A model generated the notes under the pieces. It searched no databases. It was given only the letters and a program-made list of their open reading frames with translations, and had not been told where the DNA came from. Positions 1,132-18,402 of a DNA stretch of 64,000 nt are shown here, piece by piece; the stretch's first letter is position 1, and the number at the start of each line of letters is the position of its first letter. Where the stretch lies: NCBI GenBank assembly GCA_022071965.1, contig JAJVIQ010000009.1, positions 62,001-126,000 on the forward strand, in the 5' to 3' direction. The translations under genes and the position numbers were made by a program. This DNA is from Gammaproteobacteria bacterium (GTDB lineage: Bacteria > Pseudomonadota > Gammaproteobacteria > JAJPIJ01).

Positions 1132-4274
<3,143 letters not shown>

Positions 4275-4278
4275 GTGG

Positions 4279-4346
4279 GCGTCCAACAACCGGCTGCAGC
4301 GGACGGCCCGCAGCGCGGCCCGCCGCTGAACCGGAGCGTTGGACGC
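4279..4346 (+). mobile_element. Integron attC-like recombination site (59-base element type)
   Basis: A 68-bp imperfect palindrome starts five bases after the hsdR stop. The outer arms are exact 9-base inverted copies, GCGTCCAAC at 4279-4287 and GTTGGACGC at 4338-4346. They fit the integron simple-site consensus RYYYAAC / GTTRRRY. A second inner pair (AACCGGCTGCAGCGG against CCGCTGAACCGG) pairs with mismatches and an extrahelical base, as L-boxes of attC sites do. The loop between is GC-rich. No integrase gene is in the window and only one convincing site is seen, so this may be a solitary attC or the edge of a cassette array. Folding the bottom strand would test it. Confidence 0.65.
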
Positions 4347-4356
4347 CCGCAGTCCA

Positions 4357-4737
4357 ATGGCGCTCGCGCTCACCGATCTGGTCACTGATCTCGCTGATGC
4401 GCTCGCTGCGGTAGACGCCACTCGCGCGGTCCACAAGGCATTTCAGCCTGGTATCGGTCCCTTCGGTGAGGCCGATGCTGTGCGCGCAGCACTCGTCTGG
4501 TTGCGCGACTCAAAGGCATCAGCCTATCGAGCGGTGCAAACAAAGCGGCTCCCCGATCTTCTCGTTCCCGGCGAGTGGGCCGTCGAACTCAAAGTGGTCC
4601 GTCCGTTCGGCGACAACGGCAAACCAGCAGAGCATTGGTCGGAGAACGTGCTTCACCCGTACGCGGGCAACACCAGCTCGCTCGGTGACTGCCTGAAACT
4701 CCTCGCATCCGGCCTCTCAGAGCGGAAGGTCGTCTGA
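4357..4737 (+). CDS. Truncated restriction-endonuclease-like protein (PD-(D/E)XK-type fragment)
   Basis: The ORF encodes 126 residues from the ATG at 4357; a TTG start at 4339 would lie inside the attC-like site and is unlikely. I do not recognise the family by name. The stretch LPDLLVPGEWAVELKVVRP has a PD...ExK spacing like a PD-(D/E)XK nuclease core, preceded by a helical region with RAALVWLRDSKASAYRAV. The protein stops at SGLSERKVV, where a longer product would be expected to continue, so it is probably a 3'-truncated gene. It sits directly after the attC-like site, as a cassette gene would, and seven bases before a second gene fragment. The nuclease reading is inference from motif spacing alone. 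Confidence 0.45.
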   Translation: MALALTDLVTDLADALAAVDATRAVHKAFQPGIGPFGEADAVRAALVWLRDSKASAYRAVQTKRLPDLLVPGEWAVELKVVRPFGDNGKPAEHWSENVLHPYAGNTSSLGDCLKLLASGLSERKVV

Positions 4738-4744
4738 ATCCTCG

Positions 4745-5086
4745 ATGAGCCAGTTCACGTTCCTCCAGCGCGAACGGGTCGCCGTCTTCGAGGCTGCGTC
4801 GAAGGCTGAGGCGGCGGTCCACGCCGATCCGCGCACGGCCTGCTTCTATTCCCGCCGCGCGCTGGAGCTGGCGGTGACCTGGGCCTTCAAACACGACGGG
4901 GCGCTCCGACTTCCGTACCAGGACAACCTCTCCCCACGGATCCACGAGCCGAGCTTCAAGGAGGCGACCGGCCGGGCGGTGTTCAGCAAGGCGCGGGTGA
5001 TCAACACGCTTGGCAACCGCGCCGTGCACAGCCACCGTCCGGTACCCGAGGCGGACGGGTTCTACCCCGTTATCACGGACGGTTGA
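4745..5086 (+). pseudogene. N-terminal fragment of a second type I HsdR-like protein (DUF4145 region)
   Basis: The 113 residues begin MSQFTFLQRERVAVFEAA and contain DPRTACFYSRRALELAVTW and LPYQDNLSPRIHEPSF. This is the DUF4145-type N-terminal domain carried by EcoEI-like HsdR subunits and related DEAD/DEAH proteins. The family similarity runs to about HSHRPVPEAD and then changes into unrelated residues and a stop at 5084-5086. The nuclease and helicase portions, roughly 700-900 residues in intact homologues, are missing. The break lies just before the left end of an IS5-type remnant at 5092, so insertion followed by deletion is the likely cause. It is distinct from the intact hsdR at 1128-4274 and marks a lost second restriction system. 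Confidence 0.7.
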
Positions 5087-5091
5087 GTTAA

Positions 5092-5290
5092 GGAACCTCT
5101 GCAAAAGTCCACGATCTGATCGGTAGGCACACCGAAACACATCGGAGACGGCAATGAGCAAACAGCTGACCCTGGGCACGGGCTTTGAGAAGCTCTCCAG
5201 GACGACGAAGCGGGCGAAGTTTCTGGCCGAGATGGAGCGCATCGTGCCATGGGCCGAGCTGTGCAGGCTGATTGCGCCGAAATGCCCGGC
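5092..5290 (+). mobile_element. IS5-family insertion sequence remnant (left end plus transposase start)
   Basis: GGAACCTCTGCAAAAGTCC at 5092-5110 looks like an IS5-group terminal inverted repeat. An ATG at 5154 opens a reading frame whose first 45 or so residues, with GFEKLSRTTKRAKFLAEMER and VPWAELCRLIAP, match the N-terminus of IS5-family transposases. Similarity stops near 5290, so the DDE catalytic core and right end are gone. The same frame runs on by chance into the downstream amphi-Trp gene to 5621, but that is a separate gene with its own ribosome binding site. The fragment cannot transpose. It probably caused the truncation of the HsdR-like gene on its left. Confidence 0.62.
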
Positions 5291-5396
5291 ATCGACCGGA
5301 ATCCGCAGAGGAACGGTGCTAAGCTTTCCGGAACGGCATTTTCTACAACCTCGTTGGGCGGCGCATCGTAAGTCGACACACTCGGGAGGAATCGAA

Positions 5397-5621
5397 ATGG
5401 CAGCGAAACGCGGCAGGGACGTGGAGAAGACCTATCCCAGGGCAAAGTTCGTGGAGAAGTTGCGCCGCCTTGCGGACGCCATGGAAAATGGCGAGCGCTT
5501 CGCAATTCAGATCGCGGGAGAGAGGGTTTTCGTCCCTGCCAAGGCCATTTTCAACATCGAGCACGAACGGTCCGGGGAAGAGGAGGAGATCGAGTTCCAG
5601 ATCAAGTGGGCAAGAGAGTGA
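5397..5621 (+). CDS. amphi-Trp domain protein
   Basis: A 74-residue protein starting at the ATG at 5397, which is preceded by the good ribosome site GGGAGGA. An upstream in-frame ATG at 5154 belongs to the transposase remnant. The pattern of a helical part (YPRAKFVEKLRRLADAMENG), a short strand with a Gly-Glu turn (AIQIAGERVFVPAKA), then IEHERSGEEEEIEFQIKW fits the small amphi-Trp domain family, named for its ending with acidic residues and a conserved Trp. These are small alpha/beta proteins of unknown function found in many bacteria and archaea. The gene sits alone between an IS remnant and other orphan genes, so context gives no role. Confidence 0.68.
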   Translation: MAAKRGRDVEKTYPRAKFVEKLRRLADAMENGERFAIQIAGERVFVPAKAIFNIEHERSGEEEEIEFQIKWARE

Positions 5622-5752
5622 CGTTGCCGGAGTTGCCGCCCGAGCACTCGCTGGGGGCCGATCTCCCGGACGGGCTGCGGTCCTGGCCCGAACGTCAGGC
5701 CCGGGAGGCGACACCGGCAACGCGTATGCCGATCACGATACCTCCGCGGTGA
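5618..5752 (+). CDS. Small ORF overlapping the amphi-Trp stop, unrecognised
   Basis: A 44-codon frame opens with GTG overlapping the amphi-Trp stop (GTGA) and ends at 5750-5752. The predicted peptide is Pro- and Arg-rich (PELPPEHSLGADLPDGLRSW) with no recognisable domain. The GTGA overlap is typical of coupled genes, but no family is recognised and the length is small, so it may be chance or the start of a truncated gene. It is listed because of the overlap only. Confidence 0.2.
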   Translation: MTLPELPPEHSLGADLPDGLRSWPERQAREATPATRMPITIPPR

Positions 5753-5771
5753 ACGTCAGCCGTCGGCGCCC

Positions 5772-6275
5772 ATGACTGCTCCGATCCTGGTTGTCAGCGC
5801 ATCCCGACGGAAGCTCGTCCTGCCGCTCACCGCATCCGCCGGCTGCGTTGCGCTCGGCGTTTTCCTCGTGGCCAGCGAAAGTGGCGCCGGCCACTGGGTG
5901 GGGTGGATGTGCATCGTGTTCTTTGGTACGGGCATCCTCCTGTTCGTGCGTCAGCTCGTCGATACGCAGCCCAGGGTCGTGCTCGACGAAGCCGGAGTTC
6001 TTGATCGAACGCTCGGTGTCGGCGTCATTCCGTGGTCGGATATCGGGAGTTCATACGTCAGGACGATTCATGGAGGCGACTTCGTCTGTCTCGTGCTGCA
6101 CAACCCGGAAAGGTGGATTGCCAAGCTCTCCGAGACGCAGCGAGCCCTGGTCGAGGCGAACGAGAAACTTGGCTTCCAGCCGCTGAACATCAACCTCTCC
6201 GGCACGGCGGCGGACGCCGCGATGGTGCAGGAAGTGGTGCTGAGGAAGTGCGGCGAACGCGCCCGGCGCGGCTGA
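5772..6275 (+). CDS. STM3941-family membrane-anchored protein
   Basis: A 167-residue protein with two hydrophobic segments near the N-terminus (residues about 17-36 and 43-62), then a soluble region. That region has VLDEAGVLDRTLGVGVIPWSDIGS, a PH-like strand pattern often seen in bacterial membrane-associated domains, and ends PLNINLSGTAADAAMVQEVV. That ending and the overall layout match the STM3941 family of uncharacterised membrane proteins. The role is unknown. It is a single gene with about 150 bp before it and a gene-poor stretch after it, in the accessory segment of the window. Family placement rests on pattern recognition, and function is not inferred. Confidence 0.65.
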   Translation: MTAPILVVSASRRKLVLPLTASAGCVALGVFLVASESGAGHWVGWMCIVFFGTGILLFVRQLVDTQPRVVLDEAGVLDRTLGVGVIPWSDIGSSYVRTIHGGDFVCLVLHNPERWIAKLSETQRALVEANEKLGFQPLNINLSGTAADAAMVQEVVLRKCGERARRG

Positions 6276-7253
6276 CGTGCGCTTCAGGTTCGCGCGCTGC
6301 ACGTGCCCGATCATCAACGGCGCCACGGCGCTGTTCGCGGCTTGTTCGCGGCGTTCGACGGCGAAGTGATTGCGAGCGGGGCAGGCTCGATGAAAGGCGG
6401 CGACGGGGCAGCTCACGCGCGTGGCCAGAAGGCGCTCTACGGTCTTCTCGCGCCTCTCGTCGTCGGTGTTCTTGACTTCTGGCTGATCGGGCTCGTGCTT
6501 GCACATGCCTGGCAGTGGCGGATTGGGCCATTTCAGCGCTAGGGTGCGTTCGTTTCCGACCGACCCTCCGCACGACCCTGACGCGCCGGAAGCGCGCGCA
6601 GATCAACGGAACTTCGGCGTCAGGTCGGAGATGAAGGGCAATTGCCGCCTTTGCACGGACCTCGCGTGGCTGTGGCCGATGTGGGGCGCCGCCGGCTCCG
6701 GGTACGCGCTCTACCGCAAACAGCTCACGGGACATATTCGCCGGAGCGCGGCGCGCCCGGTCGCCACGCTGCCGGACGTTGGATGCGAAGACGGGAAGAA
6801 CATCCTGAACCCGAAGCAGGAGTTCACGGCCGCCGGTCCGGATGTGAGCCTCGCCACACCGGACGAGACGGCCGGGACGTTTCAGCAGAACAGGACCACG
6901 ACCACCCGGGGCGTGCGGGACGGCTTGGATATCGTTTCCGTCGAGAACCTGTACGACCCTGACCCTGCAGGTGAGCAGTATGAGGCGACGATGCCGTATC
7001 CGATTCGCGAACACGGGCGCCCCGGATTGAAAGCGATCACGGGACACCGGGATGTTTACCATCGACTCTGGAAGACGGGTTCTGCGCGAAGCGGGCTTCG
7101 GGATCCACGAGGGACGGTGCAGCCCTGCAGAGGACGAGTTTACCGTGTTCACGCGCGTCAGGACGGGATGATGGCCGATTCCGCCCATGCGGCCGATCCG
7201 TCCCGGGGGCTACGCCCGCCTGCCCGGGCTACTGACGGGCGACGCCGAACGTC
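6276..7253. other. Gene-poor, probably decayed stretch
   Basis: About 980 bp with no convincing gene. A GTG frame at 6303-6542 gives 79 residues with one hydrophobic run (LLAPLVVGVLDFWLIGLVLA) and could be a small membrane protein. A 252-residue frame at 6499-7257 reads like non-coding GC-rich DNA, but it includes LPDVGCEDGKNI, which faintly recalls the SAM-binding motif I of methyltransferases. A short frame at 7052-7171 with RRVLREAGFGIHEG and a final DEFTVFTRV resembles a methyltransferase C-terminus. These scattered pieces suggest a degraded methyltransferase gene, with low confidence. The stretch separates the STM3941-like gene from the AAA ATPase gene. Confidence 0.4.
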
Positions 7254-8854: not shown

Positions 8855-9814
8855 TCAGAAGTACCTGTTGACGAGGTCCATGCCCGTGTAGAGCGAGGCG
8901 ACCTGGTCGGCATAGCCGTTGAACGGCAGCGTCGGCCGCTTGAGGAATTCGCCGATGCGGCGTTCCTTGGCCTGGCTCCAGCGCGGGTGATCGCGCTCCG
9001 GATTGACGTTGGAGTAGAAGCCGTACTCATCCGGCGCCGCGCGGTTCCAGGTCGAGCCCGGCTGCTCCTCGGTAAAACGGAGCTTCACGATGGACTTGAT
9101 GCTCTTGAAGCCATATTTCCACGGCACGACCAGCCTCAGCGGCGCGCCGTTCTGGTTCGGCAGCACCTCGCCATACATGCCGGCGGCGAGGATGGTCAGC
9201 GGATGCATGGCCTCGTCCATGCGCAGGCCTTCCACGTAGGGCCAGTCGAGCACGGCCCGGCGCTGCCCTGGCATCTGCTGCGGATCGAGCAGCGTCGTGA
9301 ACTCCACGTACTTCGCGTTGCCGGTGGGCTCGAACCGCCTGATGAGATCGGCCAGCGGGAAGCCGACCCAGGGGATCACCATCGACCATGCCTCCACGCA
9401 GCGCAGGCGATAGATGCGCTCCTCCAGCGCGTGCGGTTTCAGGAAGTCCTCCAGCGCGTAGGTGCCCGGCCGGGCGCACTCGCCCTCGACCGTCACCGAC
9501 CACGGGCGGGTCCTGAAGTCCTTCGCGTAGAGCGAGGGGTCCTCCTTGGCGGTCCCGAACTCATAGAAGTTGTTGTAGGTGGTCGCCGATTCGTAGGGCG
9601 TCAGCTCCTCATCGGTCACGTAGGCGGATTTCGCTATGCCGGAGATTTTCTCCCCTGCGAGCACGGAGGGCGCCGCGAGGCTGCCGAACGCCCCGAGGGC
9701 GGCGGCGGTGAGGCCGGCGTCTATGGAACAGGAGAGGAATTCGCGGCGGCGCAGGTATACCGACCGGTCCGTGATCTCCGAGGACGGGATCTCTTGTGGA
9801 CGTTTGATCAGCAT
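8855..9814 (-). CDS. msrP: Protein-methionine-sulfoxide reductase catalytic subunit MsrP
   Basis: A 319-residue periplasmic molybdopterin enzyme that reduces methionine sulfoxide in envelope proteins. The N-terminus has a twin-arginine signal, RRREFL at residues 22-27, followed by a hydrophobic stretch to about residue 53, so it is exported folded. The molybdenum-ligating cysteine is Cys139 in [11 protein letters not shown]. Other family blocks are [26 protein letters not shown] and STWN. The pair with msrQ forms the complete MsrPQ system. The upstream 230-bp region is shared with the divergent beta-barrel gene at 10045. Nothing essential is missing. Confidence 0.95.
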
Positions 9815-10044: not shown

Positions 10045-11463
10045 GTGTCGGGATTACGTCGAAATCTCAGGGGCTTAGCGATAGGCTGCACGCTCGTCGC
10101 CACGGTCGGCGTGGCCGCGGACGAGGCGCTGTACGCCAAGGCCCGGGATCTGCTCGCCAAGCGCCGGGGTGCGGAGGCCTACGAGGTCCTCAGGCCCGCG
10201 GTCGCGACCAAGGCCGGGGATCCGGAGTTCGACCTCCTCTACGGCATGTCCGCGATCGACGCCGGCAAACCCACCGAGGCGACCTTCGCGCTCGAACGCG
10301 TGCTGGATGCCGAGCCCGACAATGCCGCCGCCCAGGCCGAGCTCGGGCGCGCCTATTACGAGATGGGCGAGAACGACGCGGCCAAGGCGCAGTTCGAGCA
10401 GGTCCGGGGGGAGAAGCTGCCGCCGACCGTGCAGCAGAACATCGACCGCTACCTCGCGGCCATCGACGTCCGCAACGAGGCCCGGCGCACCACCTACCGG
10501 GCCTATGTCGAGGTCGGCGCGGGCTACGACTCCAACGTCAACAGCGCGACCGACCAGACGCAGATCATCGTGCCGCTGATCTCGCCGGTGATCCCGGCGA
10601 CGCTCGGGGATTCCGCCCTGGAGCAGGAAAGCGCCATCTGGAGCATCGACACGGGATTCAGCTTCAATAGTCCGCTGGCCGACCCGTGGACACTGTACGG
10701 CGGCGTGAACCTGCAGCACCGCGCCGCCATGTCGGACACCGTCTGCAACACGCCGGAGGGCGAGACGTCCTGCTCGACCGCGGCGGCCGACGGCACGCTC
10801 GGCGCGGCCTACGCACTCTCGGAGAAGGATCGACTCCGCGGTTCCGTGTACGGCCAGAAGTTCCTTGTCGGCAGCGAGGAAAATCGCGATCTCGCGGCCT
10901 TCAACTTCGACTACACGCACACGTATGCGAAGTCGGACCAGATGAGCCTGTTCAGTCAGGCCGCCATGATCCGTTATCCGGAGCAGAGCCTCCGCGATGT
11001 CAATCGCTACGTGGCCGGCGCCGGCTGGGTGCATGCGTTCTCCGGGGGCGGCGCACCGGTCGCTTTCATCAGCGGCTACGGCGGCACCGAGGTGAACCTG
11101 AACGACAACGACGACCCGGTGAGGCCCGCGCTCGGCGTCGGCCGCAACCTCGCCGGACTGCGGGCGGGCGGGGAGTATTCCTTCACCAGCCGCGCCCGGG
11201 TATTCGGCTCGGTGACCTACGAGGGCAGCTGGTACGACAGCGCCTCGCCCGGCTTCTTTCTGGCCGGCGCCGATCCCACCGATTGCGACGAGGTGGATTG
11301 CCGCGAGGACGATTACGTGAGCGTCAACGGCGGCGTTCGCTACTCGGTCACGCGCATGATCAGCATACGCCCGGAGGTCCGCTACACCTCCAACGACTCG
11401 AACGTCGTATTGAACGATTACGACCGGTGGGAGGCCATGGTCTTCTTCCGCAGCGCCTTCTGA
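10045..11463 (+). CDS. TPR plus outer-membrane beta-barrel protein, Slam / type XI secretion-like (DUF560 type)
   Basis: A 472-residue protein starting at GTG after a strong ribosome site. Residues 1-25 are a signal peptide (cleavage near VGVAADE). Residues about 28-145 are TPR-like helices (AEAYEVLRPAVA, ATFALERVLDAEPDNAAAQ, ELGRAYYEMGENDAA). From about residue 150 the sequence alternates as amphipathic strands, beginning AYVEVGAGYDSNVNS, and ends in Phe (AMVFFRSAF), the outer-membrane barrel signature. A periplasmic TPR joined to a barrel of about 320 residues is the layout of Slam proteins, which move lipoproteins or hemophores across the outer membrane. The next gene encodes a plausible cargo. 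The architecture is clear; the transport role is inference. Confidence 0.7.
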   Translation: MSGLRRNLRGLAIGCTLVATVGVAADEALYAKARDLLAKRRGAEAYEVLRPAVATKAGDPEFDLLYGMSAIDAGKPTEATFALERVLDAEPDNAAAQAELGRAYYEMGENDAAKAQFEQVRGEKLPPTVQQNIDRYLAAIDVRNEARRTTYRAYVEVGAGYDSNVNSATDQTQIIVPLISPVIPATLGDSALEQESAIWSIDTGFSFNSPLADPWTLYGGVNLQHRAAMSDTVCNTPEGETSCSTAAADGTLGAAYALSEKDRLRGSVYGQKFLVGSEENRDLAAFNFDYTHTYAKSDQMSLFSQAAMIRYPEQSLRDVNRYVAGAGWVHAFSGGGAPVAFISGYGGTEVNLNDNDDPVRPALGVGRNLAGLRAGGEYSFTSRARVFGSVTYEGSWYDSASPGFFLAGADPTDCDEVDCREDDYVSVNGGVRYSVTRMISIRPEVRYTSNDSNVVLNDYDRWEAMVFFRSAF

Positions 11464-11838
11464 CACTGCGCTCCGCCCCGCCCCGGGCCTGGGAATTGCG
11501 TCGAACCATCGCGGCGCCGCATGCGCCCAGCATCGATTGCATGCTCATCGGCGAGCGCAGGCCGTGCCCGCTCGCCGTATCCGCATACGCCGTCGATCGC
11601 GCGCAGGGACCCGGGGCGCGGATCGACGGCCAGCGCGCGCCGCGGGTGCCGGCGATGCGCGGCGATCGGGCCGGTCCGGTGGGTGTGATCGATCGACCAG
11701 GGTCATGGCGCTGCCGCCACGGTCCGGGTGCCAGCGCTGGTTCAGGCGCGTATGATTGGATCACTTCGATCACCAACGAGGTCGCGGTGGCGGGTGCAGG
11801 TCTGCATGCCCGTGCGGCCGCCGGCCAAGGAGCGAGTC
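11464..11838. other. 375-bp intergenic region between barrel gene and FecR gene
   Basis: I see no gene here. A frame upstream of the FecR-type gene is open from 11728, but its residues are Arg-rich and lack a signal peptide; the real start at 11839 has its own ribosome site (AAGGAG at 11827-11832). The region is GC-rich with many short inverted repeats but no clear terminator. A separate promoter for the FecR gene is possible, given the gap length. Confidence 0.4.
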
Positions 11839-13392
11839 ATGGGCGGAGTACGCGGGTGTGGATTGGCAGTATTCGCGCTGGCCTTGCTGATGACCACGAA
11901 GGTCGGCGCCGGGCAGGCGGCGGACGTGGTCTATGCGCACGGCGACGTGCGCGTGATGGACGCGGCGGGCGCGGCGCAGCCGGTGCGGCGCGGGATGGCG
12001 GTGCAGTCCGGGCAGACGCTCGTGACCGGGCAGGGCCGCCTGCAGATGCGCATGTCCGATGGCGGCTTCATCGCGCTGCAGCCGGACACGCAGTTCCGGA
12101 TCGACGAATACAACTACGCGGGCGCCGAGGACGGCAGCGAGCGCAGCTTCTTCAACCTCGTGAAGGGCGGGATCCGCTTCATCACCGGGGCGATCGGTCA
12201 CCGGAACAAGGAGAATTTCCGGATCAAGACGGCGGTGGCGACCATTGGCATCCGGGGCAGCGCAGGCCGCGCGAACTTCTGCGAGGGCGGCAGTTGTGGC
12301 GGATACCCCGACGGGCTGTACGTGACGGGCAATCAGGACACCCTGACCATGCAGAACGAGAAGGACAGCCAGGACATCGATCCGGGCCAGACCTTCTATA
12401 CGGGGTGCGCCGACTGCGACATCCACGAGGTCGACGCCGGGCCGAACGCCTACGCCGCGGTCACGCCCGGCGAGGGCGAACAGGAGGAGGACAACGAAGG
12501 AGAAGGGGAAGGCGCGTCCGGTGCCCCGGCCGAAGGCGGGTATGCCGCCGGTGACCAGCGCGATGCCGAGGGCGATCTGATCGGCTTGCCGGACAACCCC
12601 GTGATTCCGGTGCCGGAGAGCGGTGACCTCATCGCCTCGGTGGTCGGTGCCGGGAGCAGTTCCAGGCCGGAACTGGCCTTCCTGGTCGGCGTGGACAAGA
12701 ATCCTCCCACCGCGATCACCGGCGTCGAGAGCTCCAGCGGCGTGCTGCATTCCGCGGTGCTGGGCACGGCCACCGTCAAGGACTCCTATTCCAGCGCGAA
12801 CGGCGCACTGTTCCTGGCGCGCTGGGGTGGCGGCACCTACACCGACATCCAGGACGGGGTGAGCAGGACCGAGACGCTGAGCGGCGAGCAGGGACTGCAT
12901 TTCGCGTATGGCACCTCGGCAACTGTCTCGGAGTCGGCGTTGAGCTCGGGCGCTACGGCGTTCTACGACCTCGCCGGCTTCACCGCGCCGACACGGGCCA
13001 GCGGCAGCGGTGCGCCGGGTACGGTGACCGGCGGCACCCTTGCCGTCAACTTTTCGACCGAGCCGAGCGCGGAGCTTCTCGGGATGACGGTGCAACAGGG
13101 CGGCGCGACCTACAGTGTGAGCACCGGCCCGATGGACATCCTGTTGTTGTCGGCCTCCGGTGGCGGCGTGAATCCGATCTTCTCGGATATCGGCACCGCG
13201 GTCGGCACCGGGCGCACCGGCGCGTGCGCAAACGGCTGCGGCGTGGATGTCGCGGGATTCCTGAGCGGCTCGGCGAACTCCACGATAGGCACCATCCCTT
13301 CACACGCCGGGTTGACGTACACCATACGCGACGCCGATCCGCTGTCAGGCGCGGCAGGCTTCGAGTTCAACGGTGAGGTCTCGGCGCCCTAG
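11839..13392 (+). CDS. Secreted FecR-domain protein with C-terminal Gly/Ser/Thr-rich (probable beta-barrel) domain
   Basis: A 517-residue exported protein. The signal peptide is MGGVRGCGLAVFALALL, cleaved near GAGQAAD, with no lipobox. Residues about 30-150 form a FecR domain: VVYAHGDVRVM, FIALQPDTQFRIDEYNY, KTAVATIGIRGS. An acidic low-complexity linker (GEQEEDNEGEGEG) lies near residues 212-224. The C-terminal 250 residues are Gly/Ser/Thr-rich with strand-like alternation, ending GAAGFEFNGEVSAP, which recalls the eight-stranded TbpB-like barrel of Slam cargo. Cys pairs occur in FCEGGSC, GCADC and CANGC. No FecI sigma factor or membrane helix is present, so it is not an anti-sigma factor. It may be exported by the barrel protein upstream, which is inference. 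Confidence 0.68.
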   Translation: MGGVRGCGLAVFALALLMTTKVGAGQAADVVYAHGDVRVMDAAGAAQPVRRGMAVQSGQTLVTGQGRLQMRMSDGGFIALQPDTQFRIDEYNYAGAEDGSERSFFNLVKGGIRFITGAIGHRNKENFRIKTAVATIGIRGSAGRANFCEGGSCGGYPDGLYVTGNQDTLTMQNEKDSQDIDPGQTFYTGCADCDIHEVDAGPNAYAAVTPGEGEQEEDNEGEGEGASGAPAEGGYAAGDQRDAEGDLIGLPDNPVIPVPESGDLIASVVGAGSSSRPELAFLVGVDKNPPTAITGVESSSGVLHSAVLGTATVKDSYSSANGALFLARWGGGTYTDIQDGVSRTETLSGEQGLHFAYGTSATVSESALSSGATAFYDLAGFTAPTRASGSGAPGTVTGGTLAVNFSTEPSAELLGMTVQQGGATYSVSTGPMDILLLSASGGGVNPIFSDIGTAVGTGRTGACANGCGVDVAGFLSGSANSTIGTIPSHAGLTYTIRDADPLSGAAGFEFNGEVSAP

Positions 13393-13558
13393 CGCCGGCC
13401 TGGCTGCTGCCGGTGTCGCGGATCGCCTGTGAGGCGACCCGGTGTGGCGCCTGGTTTTGTGAATCAGTCGCCGCTACCTCGCGGCGCCGCCGGCAGAGTC
13501 GCGCCACCACCGGATCGATAATACGGCTCGACGCAAGGCCAACGAGGGGAGGTTCGAC

Positions 13559-14371
13559 ATGCAAACGACCAGCGGAAGCATGACTGCACGCGCCGCCCTG
13601 ATGGCCGCCGTGCTCGTGGCGGTGCCGGGAACGGCCGTGGCGGCGGATTCTGCGGGCCGGGTCGTATCCGTGACCGGTCAGGTGCAGGCAACGGGTGCGG
13701 ACGGCCAGGCGCGCGCCGTGCGCAAGAACGACATGGTCGGCGCCGGGGACACCCTGAGCACGAATGACGGGCGGGCGCAGATCCACTTTCGCGACGGCGG
13801 CGTCATCGCGCTGAAGCCGCGCACGGAGTTCCGCATCGACGCATACAACTATGCCGGCGGCGAAGACGGCAGCGAGCGCAGCTTCTTCAGCCTGCTGAAA
13901 GGCGGCTTCCGCGCCATCAGCGGCGCCATCGGCCACAGGAACCGGGAGGCCTATCGCGTGCAGACCGCGGTGGCCACGATCGGCATACGCGGCACCGCCT
14001 ACGAGGCGGATCTCTGCAACAACGACTGCGAGGGCAGGGAGAACGGCCTCCACGAGACCACCGACGACGGGACGACCAATCTTTCCAACCGGGCCGGATC
14101 GCTGGACGTGCCGGCGGGCAGGTCCGCCTACGTGAAGGACGAGAATACACCGCCCGTGCTGGTCGAGGAGAACGGCGGCGGCCCGCTGGATGAATTGGGT
14201 GAAAATCCGCTCGACGACCCGAACTTCAGGGCCGGCGAGAATCCCGTCGATTTCACGCCGCCGAAGATCGATCCGGTGCCGTCTCCGACGCCGGAGATCC
14301 CGCCACCGAGCGACGGCGGCGGGGTCATCACGCCGCCGACCGGCGGGCCATCGACCGCGCCGCTCAATTGA
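13559..14371 (+). CDS. Secreted FecR-domain protein, paralogue of the upstream gene
   Basis: A 270-residue protein with a signal peptide (cleavage near GTAVAADSAG) and strong ribosome site GGGGAGG. Residues about 30-150 are a FecR domain nearly matching that of the preceding gene: FRIDAYNYAGGEDGSERSFF, then GAIGHRNREAYRV and TAVATIGIRGTA. The rest is short and Pro-rich (DPVPSPTPEIPPPSDGGG), with no barrel domain, so it could be a wall- or partner-binding tail. LCNNDC mirrors the Cys pair of the paralogue. It ends 18 bp before the convergent purL stop. The paralogues share long blocks at DNA level too, pointing to tandem duplication followed by loss or gain of the C-terminal domain. Confidence 0.72.
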   Translation: MQTTSGSMTARAALMAAVLVAVPGTAVAADSAGRVVSVTGQVQATGADGQARAVRKNDMVGAGDTLSTNDGRAQIHFRDGGVIALKPRTEFRIDAYNYAGGEDGSERSFFSLLKGGFRAISGAIGHRNREAYRVQTAVATIGIRGTAYEADLCNNDCEGRENGLHETTDDGTTNLSNRAGSLDVPAGRSAYVKDENTPPVLVEENGGGPLDELGENPLDDPNFRAGENPVDFTPPKIDPVPSPTPEIPPPSDGGGVITPPTGGPSTAPLN

Positions 14372-14389: not shown

Positions 14390-17300
14390 TCAGGACTCGT
14401 CCACCCACGCCCGTGCGTTGCGGAACATCCGCAGCCACGGGCCTTCTGCCTGCCGCCAACCCGGGTCGATCCACGAGAACTGCCTGCGCAGGAACACGCG
14501 CTCCGGGTGCGGCATGAGTATGGTGACGCGGCCGTCGATATTGGTGAACGCCGTGATGCCCAGCGGCGAGCCGTTGGGATTGAAGGGGTAGGCCTCCGTC
14601 GGCGCACCGTGATTGTCGACATAGCGCATGGCCGCGAGTTTCGCATGCAATGCCTGCCGGGGTCCGCGCTCGTCGTTGTACAGGGCACGGCCCTCGCCGT
14701 GCGCGACCACGATCGGCAGCCGCGAGCCGGCCATGCCGGCGAAGAAGATCGAGGCGGTATCGAGGATCTCGACCATCACCAGACGCGCCTCGAACTGCTC
14801 GGAGCGATTGCGCACGAATCGGGGCCAATGCCCGGCGCCGGGCACCAGGGAGTCGAGCTGCGAGAGCATCTGGCAGCCGTTGCAGACACCCAGGGCGAAA
14901 CGATCGCCGCGGTCGAGAAAGGCTGCAAACTCCTCGCGCGCACGCGCGTTGTAGAGGATGGACTTCGCCCAGCCGCCGCCCGCCCCGAGCACGTCGCCGT
15001 AGGAGAACCCGCCGCCGGCCGCCAGGCCTCTGAAATCGCGCAGCCGCACGCGGTCGTCCAGGATGTCGCTCATGTGCACATCCACCGCGGCGAAACCCGC
15101 CAGGTCGAAGGCGGCGGCCATCTCGTTGTGACCGTTGACCCCCTGCTCGCGCAGGATGGCCACGCGCGGCCGCGCCTTGCCGATCACCGCCGGCGCGCTG
15201 TCGACGCTGAAGGTCGCCATGACGCTCAGGCCGGGATCCTCGCGGTCCAATAGCGCATCGAACTCCTGCCGCGCGCAGTCGGGGTGGTCTCGCAGCGCCC
15301 GCAACCGGTAGCCGGTCTGCGACCAGAGGCGGTGCAGCGCCGGCACGTCCGAGCAGTAGACCTCGCTGTCGCGGTGCCGGATCCGCAGGGCGAGATCCTC
15401 CCCGGGCGCGCCGATCGGGTGCACGCATTCGCCGAGGCCGACGGCGGCGAACTGCGCGCGCACCTCGTCGCCATGCGCGCGGCGTACCTGCACGACCGCG
15501 CCAAGTTCCTCATTGAACAGGGCCGACATGACGTCGCCGCCGACCGCGTCGAGGTCCAGCGTCACGCCGGTGCGCCCGGCGAAGGCCATCTCCGCTATGG
15601 TCGTGAACAGGCCGCCGTCGGAGCGGTCGTGATAGGCGAGCAGCAGGCCCGCCTCGTTCAGGACCTGCACGGTGGTGAAGAAATGCCGCAGATCCTGCGG
15701 CGCCTCGAGGTCCGGCGCCTCGGCGCCGAGCTGGCCGTAGACCTGCGCCAGGCAGGAGCCGCCGAGCCGGCCGCGGCCGCGGGCCAGGTCGATGAGCAGC
15801 AGCTCGGTCTCGCCGCAGTCCGCGCGCAATTGCGGCGTGAGGGTCTGCCTGACGTCGACCACCGGCGCGAACGCCGAGACGATGAGCGACATCGGCGCCA
15901 CCACCCGGTGCTCGCCGCGCTCGTCCTTCCACACCGTCTTCATCGACAACGAATCCTTGCCGACCGGCACGGCGATGCCGAGGGCGGGACAGAGCTCCAT
16001 GCCGACGGCGCGTACGGCATCGAACAGGGCGGCATCCTCGTCGCCGTGCCCGCAGGCCGCCATCCAGTTCGCCGAGAGCACGATGTCGGACAGCTGCATG
16101 ATGCGCGCCGCCGCGACATTCGTGATCGCCTCGCCGATCGCCAGCCGTGCGGAGGCCGCCGCGTCGATGAGAGCGACCGGCGTGCGCTCGCCCATCGCCA
16201 TCGCCTCGCCGGTGATGTCGCGATAGCCGCTGGCGGTGACCGCGCAGTCGGCGACCGGGACCTGCCATGGCCCGACCATCTGGTCGCGCGCCGTCAGGCC
16301 GCCGACGGTGCGATCGCCGATGGTGATGAGGAAGCCCTTGTCGCCCACGGTCGGCAGGCTCAGCACCCGCTCGATCGCCTCCGCGAGCCCCGCGGCGGGC
16401 AGATCGAGCGCGCGCGCCGCGGGCGCCGGCCGTATCGCCGTGCGATGCATGCGCGGCGGCTTGCCGAACAGCACGTTCATGGGCATGTCGACCGGGGTGC
16501 CGCCGAGCAGACGATCCGTCAACCGCAGCCGCTGTTCGACGGTGGCGTTGCCCAGCACGGCGAACGGGCAGCGCTCGCGCGCGCAGATCGCGCCGAAACG
16601 CTCCAGATCGCCGGGGCCGATCGCCAGCACGTAGCGCTCCTGGGCCTCGTTGCACCAGATCGCCAGCGGCGACATCCCCGGCTCGACGTTCGGGATCTCA
16701 CGCAGCTCGAGCTGACCTCCGCGGCGGGCGCCGTGCAGCAGCTCCGGCACGGCATTGGACAGGCCGCCCGCCCCCACGTCGTGGATGGAGAGTATCGGGT
16801 TCGCATCGCCGAGGGCGATGCACGTGTCGATGACCTCCTGGCAGCGACGCTCCATCTCGGCGTTGTCGCGCTGCACGGAGGCGAAGTCGAGGTGCTCCTG
16901 GCCGGCGCCGCTCGCGACCGAGGAGGCCGCGCCGCCGCCCAGCCCGATCTGCATCGCCGGGCCGCCGAGCACGATGATGAGCGCGCCGGCCGGCATGCCG
17001 CGTTTCTCGATGTGAGCCACGCGTATGTTGCCCACTCCTCCGGCGATCATGATGGGCTTGTGATAGCCGCGCACCTCTCCGTCGACCTGCTGCTCGTAGG
17101 TACGGAAGTAACCGCCGAGAGCGGGCCTGCCGAACTCGTTGTTGAAGGCCGCGGCGCCGATCGGGCCCTCGAGCATGATCGACAAAGCCGAGGCCATCCG
17201 CGCCGGCCTGCCGTGCTCCCGCTCCCAGGGCTGCGGCAGCCCGGGGATGCGCAGGTTCGAGACCGAGAAGCCGGTCAGGCCCGCCTTCGGCCGCGCACCG

Positions 17301-18331
17301 GTGCCGGTGGCGCCCTCGTCGCGGATCTCCCCGCCGGCGCCGGTCGCCGCGCCCGGGTAGGGGGAGATGGCGGTCGGGTGATTGTGGGTCTCGACCTTCA
17401 TGACGATGTGCACGTCCTCGGCATGATGGCGGTATACGCCGGTGGCGGGATCGCGCAGCCAGCGGTGTCCGGGGTAGCCGCGCGCGACGGCGGCGTTGTC
17501 CTTGTAGGCCACGAGCACCTTGCCCGGATGCAGCTCGTGGGTGTTGCGGATCATCTGGAACAGCGAGCGTTGCTGCTCCTCGCCGTCGACGGTCCAGCCC
17601 GCGTTGAAGATCTTGTGCCGGCAGTGCTCGGAATTGGCCTGCGCGAACATCATCAGCTCGACGTCGGTCGGATTGCGCCGCATCGCTGCGAAGCTCTCGA
17701 ACAGGTAGTCGATCTCCTCCGCGGAGAGCGCCAGCCCCAGGTCGCGGTTGGCCTCGAGCAGCGCGGCGCGGCCCGCCCCGAGCACGTCCACGTGCGCGAG
17801 CGGGGCGGGCGCGGTGTGCGCGAACAGCCGGCCGGCCTCCCCGGGGTCCGTGAACACCGACTCCGTCATCGGGTCGTGCAGCGCGCGCTTGAGACCGGCG
17901 AGGGTCGTGTCATCAGGTGCGGCGGCCGCGTCGATCTGCAACTGCCAGCGCGTGCCGCGTTCCAGGCGTCGTATCTTGGACAGTCCGCAGTTGCGGGCGA
18001 TATCCGTCGCCTTGCTCGACCATGGCGAGACCGTGCCGAAGCGCGGGGTCGTGTGGATGCAGAGCAGCGGGGCGCTTTCGGCATCGGCCGCCGGGGCGCC
18101 ATAATTCAGCAGCGAGTCGAGCCGCGCGCGGTCCTCGGCATCGAACTCCTCCGCGATGTCGATGAAGTGCATGAAACGCGCGCTCAGCCCGCGCACCCCC
18201 GGGTGCAGGACGCGCAGCTCGTTCAGGCGCCTGGCGAGGCGAAAGTCCGAGAGCGCGGAGGGGCCGTTCAGGGCGAGCATGACGGGCGAGTCGGCGGCTG
18301 CGGCGATGTCGGAAAAAGAGCGCGTGATCAT
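14390..18331 (-). CDS. purL: Phosphoribosylformylglycinamidine synthase (large, single-chain PurL)
   Basis: Catalyses the ATP- and glutamine-dependent conversion of FGAR to FGAM in purine synthesis. About 1313 residues match the large gammaproteobacterial form. The N-terminal domain begins [14 protein letters not shown]; the AIR-synthase-like halves carry [17 protein letters not shown]-type sequence (here [20 protein letters not shown]) and GVGNIRVAH. The C-terminal glutaminase holds the nucleophile Cys in GVCNGCQML, with HGEGRA and PHPERVF. The start is uncertain: ATG at 18331 fits the family better, while ATG at 18367 gives 12 more residues, and neither has a good ribosome site. The upstream neighbour at 18403 is divergent and the downstream FecR gene is convergent. 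Confidence 0.95.
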
Positions 18332-18402
18332 ACTGGAAACGGCTGCGAATTGGGGGTCGCCGGCCATCTCGGCCGGCGCATATCGCGCGGAGGAGGGTTT
18401 GC

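Follow-up and report, generated by a model that had tools for sequence, protein, structure and literature searches.

Three adjacent genes on the forward strand, at 10045-11463, 11839-13392 and 13559-14371, make up the locus considered here, and all three are open at these coordinates, which are those given in the first-pass annotation. They lie within the window, that is, the whole stretch of 64,000 nucleotides, taken from a 3.56-Mb draft genome. The first gene (10045-11463) begins with a GTG start codon and encodes a Slam/DUF560-like candidate translocon of 472 amino acids, which consists of a signal peptide, TPR helices (residues ~42-147 of the AlphaFold2, or AF2, model) and a predicted 14-stranded outer-membrane barrel (10492-11457, residues ~150-471, according to the DSSP assignment of that model). 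The second gene (11839-13392) encodes the probable cargo, a protein of 517 amino acids in which a type I signal peptide is followed by a FecR domain (11914-12432, residues 26-198, with AF2 block means mostly of 77-94), a disordered linker and a C-terminal TbpB-like handle-barrel lobe. The lobe (12628-13389, residues 264-517) is supported by AF2 strands and a profile match, and is the probable export signal. The mechanical open reading frame of the second gene begins at 11728, but it is the ATG at 11839 that is preceded by AAGGAG. The third gene (13559-14371) encodes a FecR-only paralogue of 270 amino acids with a signal peptide, a FecR domain at residues ~33-184 and a proline-rich tail.

Upstream of the three genes, msrP and msrQ are located on the opposite strand, and downstream a long purL-like gene, as read from the sequence, occupies 14390-18367 on the reverse strand. 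The flanking genes scanned with Pfam matched AAA ATPase, MsrQ, MsrP and DUF2330; among them there was no sigma factor, no TonB receptor, and no heme or TonB neighbour. Scans for promoters and terminators in the region returned nothing useful. In the window (sites 14390-18367 and 8855-9814) and in several relatives (L066-L068 and L071), a purL-like gene lies next to the pair of the first two genes, and in some cases msrP is close by. This purL/msrP neighbourhood suggests a long-standing vertical inheritance of the pair at this site.

The TPR-barrel gene and the cargo lobe

In the product of the first gene, Pfam identified TPR_19 (E 7e-11), while the Slam barrel model SlipAM (PF04575) scored 17.7 bits, under its cut-off of 22, and a family search of the whole window genome for a SlipAM-type translocon gave no match. 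The same model is passed by four of the eight orthologues scanned (L070, L072, L073 and L074), with 28-31 bits and over nearly its whole length. When an alignment of 45 members of the translocon family was compared by hhalign with seven canonical Slams from the same class, the full-length homology had a probability of 100% and an E value of 6.9e-43. Because the TPRs might inflate this score, the barrels were also compared separately, and they align end to end with the canonical Slam barrels (99.8%, E 1.4e-27), while reversed-sequence controls reached 0.9%. The AF2 model, with a mean pLDDT of 90.8, shows helices and then 14 strands, and the architecture described for Slam is likewise a TPR region plus a 14-stranded barrel (PMC5449769). 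As judged from its sequence, the 10045-11463 protein is a Slam relative, although a divergent one.

In the product of the second gene, only FecR was detected by Pfam (E 1.6e-9), with no anti-sigma segment. In the AF2 model, the FecR domain is followed by the disordered linker and then by a lobe of beta structure; the Gly/Ser/Thr-rich C-terminus is this folded lobe, for which the confidence of the model is high from about residue 300 onwards. The top Foldseek match is TbpB of Neisseria meningitidis (4qq1, E 4.6e-5), and hemophilin and fHbp are found further down the list; the TM-scores of these matches are low (0.24 for TbpB), since the domains are loosely placed in the model. By profile, an alignment of 60 C-terminal lobes matches canonical TbpB barrels with a probability of 68.8% and an E value of 4.5e-5, compared with 0.1-0.2% for the controls. 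The NCBIfam model NF041636 (slam_lipo, 'Slam-dependent surface lipoprotein') matches 4 of the 37 cargo members, with the last lobe as the matching region in L169, L141 and L133, at 20-30 bits, far below the cut-off of 80. The Pfam model TbpB_B_D (PF01298), which is common but not universal in type XI cluster 1, matched none of 13 cargo members up to E 1, and in L169 it scored 16.8 bits, below its cut-off of 26. Two claims of the first-pass annotation, a Slam-like protein with TPR and barrel and a TbpB-like region at the C-terminus of its neighbour, are therefore upheld, the former by the predicted helices and strands, the SlipAM matches of the orthologues and the homology to Slams both at full length and in the barrel alone, and the latter by fold (TbpB, hemophilin, fHbp) as well as by profile (TbpB barrels).

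There is no lipobox in the window cargo, and a regular expression found a lipobox-like motif in only 5 of 83 cargo relatives, with the other 78 lacking it. The soluble-cargo branch of type XI is likewise without lipid (PMC8406197), and the cargo predicted here appears to resemble that branch in this respect. In sum, the 11839-13392 product looks like the cargo that is probably carried by the 10045-11463 barrel. The lobe also occurs alone, as in L105 and L106, where lobe proteins of the same subfamily have no FecR domain. In L073 (genome G037), FecR and lobe sequences appear to be spread over several frames at 3971-6808, downstream of the translocon, which may reflect a frameshift, decay or a true split.

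Conservation of the gene pair

With the FecR cargo protein as the query, 80 loci were fetched from public genomes. Their hosts include Gallionella, Sideroxydans, Methylotenera, Polaromonas, Agitococcus, Xylophilus, Oceanospirillum, Moraxellaceae and many gammaproteobacteria; it should be noted that the loci were picked by similarity and are not independent, yet they span several orders. Cultivable hosts such as Polaromonas sp. JS666 and Agitococcus lubricus are among them. The translocon gene is located directly upstream and on the same strand in 61 of the 70 loci with 1.5 kb of upstream sequence, with gaps from -148 to 165 nt; the gap is mostly below 70 bp elsewhere, compared with 375 bp in the window. 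Both the lobe and the translocon are present in 50 of the 59 FecR relatives that are complete and have sufficient sequence upstream, and the remaining ones have the lobe only (four), the translocon only (two) or neither (three). When the lobe without FecR was used as the query against 274 genomes of the class, 30 loci were fetched, of which 27 have FecR in the same frame and 21 contain part of the translocon gene in their short flanks. In the window genome, one translocon match contrasts with five FecR matches, and the other FecR genes have no such translocon neighbour. Because the first two genes stand side by side in distant proteobacteria, their adjacency is not due to chance, and the co-occurrence of barrel and FecR-barrel genes that the first-pass annotation proposed to look for is found across the relatives. 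A group of Methylotenera/Nitrosomonadales loci (L138, L143, L145, L146 and L191) has the FecR-lobe gene in a conserved neighbourhood with no adjacent translocon. An apparent contrast, in which loci without a lobe also lack the translocon, is weaker than it seemed, since an improved lobe profile detects lobes in L143, L145 and L146.

Among the complete pairs, the cargo contains one lobe in 26 cases, two in 15, three in 8 and four in 1, and other members have up to six lobe matches and exceed 2,200 amino acids. Conservation is higher for the last lobe than for the best pair of internal lobes in 248 of 300 protein comparisons, which were made between related sequences and with lobes found via a profile built from C-termini. 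Such a pattern fits a putative constant C-terminal export signal combined with variable internal lobes. The linker motif [FY]xAG[ED]Q of close relatives is not general, with 5 occurrences in 87 proteins.

As for the third gene, Pfam FecR matches its product with E 1.3e-10, and over residues 11-189 the protein shares 49% identity with the FecR domain of the cargo. An orthologue is present in a genome of the same genus (G001), and FecR-only genes are also located beside the pair in G002 and G003; in G014, the sole gene after the translocon encodes a FecR protein without a lobe. Consequently, what had been described as a trio is reduced to a constant pair, with the FecR-only gene found beside it in only a few relatives; the 13559-14371 gene is an accessory and not a constant member. 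Another combination of FecR with a barrel was seen outside the window, on contig C4 of the same genome (L081, 1910-6628), where FecR, TPR repeats and, at the C-terminus, an outer-membrane barrel domain of the Pom type are united in a single protein of 1572 amino acids.

Further genes are found downstream of the pair in some lineages. A GT41 glycosyltransferase gene is located there in 17 of the 80 loci. In nine of these (L119, L120, L133, L134, L136, L160, L162, L169 and L170), it starts -64 to +37 nt from the stop codon of the cargo gene, which suggests a translocon-cargo-glycosyltransferase operon, and in the others (L161, L166, L167, L176, L177, L178, L181 and L195) the spacing is looser. 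The linked enzymes are of the O-GlcNAc-transferase type with TPRs. No GT41 gene was found in the window genome, and cargo proteins beside GT41 genes show no enrichment of N-x-S/T sequons, Ser+Thr or Asn (p 0.77, 0.65 and 0.23, respectively). Large multi-domain genes also occur downstream of the pair, in six loci (L127, L129, L130, L131, L137 and L187) and likewise in L076, L077 and L078; they encode surface-type proteins of ~860-1620 amino acids, some with apparent lipoboxes, FG-GAP, HYR or cadherin-like domains, and these might be further cargo.

Export route and the role of FecR

These observations make it very probable that the first two genes encode a translocon and its cargo and belong to a divergent type XI (Slam/DUF560) branch, the cargo being FecR-headed and non-lipidated. 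The cargo would be made with the cleavable, non-lipidated signal peptide seen in its sequence, and would cross the inner membrane by the Sec route. By homology with Slam, the TPR-barrel protein would then recognise the C-terminal TbpB-like lobe, which would pass through the 14-stranded barrel and fold outside. FecR and the linker are N-terminal to the lobe, and FecR may stay in, or hold on to, the periplasm, serving instead of a lipid as the tether of the surface lobe. The FecR-only protein, as a relative of the cargo FecR domain, would be an accessory part. The whole of this picture, namely a self-anchoring type XI system in which the lobes exit via the pore, FecR stops in the periplasm, display is lipid-free and GT41 glycosylates the cargo in some lineages, is doubtful when taken together.

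Two alternatives would leave the two genes without an export relationship of this kind or give it another purpose. The TPR-barrel protein could be a polysaccharide exporter or general porin of the BcsC/PelB/PgaA or BBP2 type, with the FecR genes as unrelated neighbours. BcsC and PelB are indeed its best PDB matches by Foldseek, smaller porins such as OmpG are also matched, no Slam structure is among the matches, and a partial match to BBP2_2 (26 bits) covers the last strands. However, the 14 strands are as in Slam, the barrel alone has the Slam homology that reversed sequences fail to reproduce, and the same neighbour gene, ending in the TbpB-like lobe, recurs in dozens of genomes, so that this explanation is very improbable. 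According to the other alternative, the FecR-lobe protein is the input of a periplasmic or surface sensor: FecR would control a cyclase or kinase of the CHASE2 type, and an external signal would be reported through export of the lobe. FecR-LysM proteins are paired with CHASE2 kinases in a biofilm operon of Burkholderia (PMC5192318), and CHASE2-cyclase genes are found within 8 of the 80 loci; in one of these, which bears both handles L147 and L072, the gene comes after the pair on the same strand. Most loci, however, have no CHASE2 gene, those in the eight loci are mostly on the opposite strand to the pair, the only CHASE2 gene of the window genome is on another contig, and the scanned flanking genes include no sigma factor partner; a sensor is therefore unlikely, though less so than an exporter or porin. 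The statement of the first-pass annotation that FecR is not in signal transduction agrees with the scanned flanks, which have neither sigma factor nor TonB receptor, but is too strong in view of the one relative with a CHASE2-cyclase after the pair. In that relative (L072/L147, from UBA6915), the translocon, cargo and CHASE2-cyclase genes interrupt a type II secretion operon, with a gspF-like gene on one side of the insertion and a gspG-like gene on the other.

The other alternatives concern what FecR does once the lobe is exported. The version of the first-pass annotation has its export steps in common with the preferred translocon-cargo explanation and departs from it only at the end: FecR would leave the cell together with the rest of the cargo and form an extracellular ligand-binding or adhesive effector domain atop the lobe. 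Known T11SS cargo combines a constant barrel at the C-terminus with N-terminal effector domains that vary (PMC12282271), the FecR part is matched by the NCBIfam models Lsa33 and LipL45, which stand for surface adhesins or lipoproteins, in 30 and 32 of 37 members, respectively, albeit below cut-off, and GT41 abuts the cargo gene in nine loci, as in glycosylated surface adhesins. Against this, these models are also matched by ordinary FecR proteins of the periplasm, and FecR is otherwise a periplasmic domain; an exported effector is quite possible, if a little short of an even chance. Alternatively, FecR could act as a retention module of the LapA type, and a protease would control the release of the cargo. 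By Foldseek, the cargo FecR domain resembles the FecR-type anti-sigma domains 4m0n/4m0h, and it superimposes on the cell-surface-anchoring domain of MpAFP (5ix9) at 1.0 A over 62 residues, with a profile E value of 1e-4. Of the 37 cargo members, 33 match the NF033682 model of the retention module below its cut-off, with a score of 25 bits recorded in one scan against the cut-off of 50, but control FecR proteins from the same genome score as well or better, and a likeness that is common to ordinary periplasmic FecR proteins is no specific argument for anchoring. LapG-like cleavage sites are present in only 5 of 87 proteins, and no LapG homologue (PF06035) was found in the window genome. LapG-type release was consequently dropped, and the LapA-type reading has very little probability; a plain FecR anchor without LapG release is possible. 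The likeness to MpAFP and the retention module, together with the otherwise periplasmic nature of FecR, makes an anchoring role attractive, and FecR as the periplasmic anchor of the surface lobe is our leading but weak guess, somewhat below an even chance and about as likely as the exported effector.

Relation to known systems

The closest known system is type XI secretion (PF04575), especially the soluble-cargo subcluster 1B (HrpB/HrpC, hemophilin), which shares the translocon with TPR and 14-stranded barrel as well as the adjacent non-lipidated cargo with a signal peptide and a C-terminal TbpB-like barrel. The differences are the divergent sequence and the FecR-headed cargo found here, the absence of heme or TonB neighbours among the scanned genes, and the hosts, which are mostly environmental proteobacteria and not animal-associated. 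The Slam1-type surface lipoproteins are lipidated, unlike the window cargo with its lack of a lipobox. TbpB and the multi-lobe T11SS surface proteins of Sphingomonas and Psychrobacter have tandem handle-barrel lobes of which the C-terminal one is the presumed targeting lobe, as here; they differ from the present cargo in its FecR N-terminus, in the number of lobe matches and in lobes that TbpB_B_D does not recognise. In HMW1A/HMW1B/HMW1C, a GT41-family enzyme modifies the exported adhesin (PMC3983070), and the tight run of exporter, cargo and GT41 genes is shared by the nine related loci. The exporter, however, belongs to another family, the GT41 enzymes here have TPRs, unlike HMW1C, the cargo has no sequon enrichment and the window genome has no GT41. 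With FecR-FecI-FecA signalling only the FecR domain is shared, since the protein here has a signal peptide and an export-type lobe, whereas the set that marks such signalling (anti-sigma segment, transmembrane helix, nearby sigma factor and TonB receptor) was not found, Pfam detecting FecR alone and the scanned flanks containing neither of the two neighbours.

Surveys of T11SS, including PMC12282271, name TbpB-like barrels as the common cargo feature, and in the openly licensed literature searched, none of these surveys mentions FecR; the proposed variant of type XI with FecR-headed cargo is therefore taken to be new. The recurrence of the pair in many environmental proteobacteria points to a widespread, undescribed type XI branch. 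According to a survey of 2025, only seven type XI systems have been verified experimentally, all in one animal-associated cluster (PMC12282271). A branch across environmental gamma- and betaproteobacteria, with its fixed gene order and conserved last lobe, would offer ready pairs for testing translocon specificity, and would also bear on the limits of lobe repetition and on the retention of cargo by a non-lipid N-terminal domain. In addition, the linkage to GT41 hints at a third partner of the kind seen with the HMW adhesins, and a role would follow for many proteins that are at present annotated merely as 'FecR domain-containing'.
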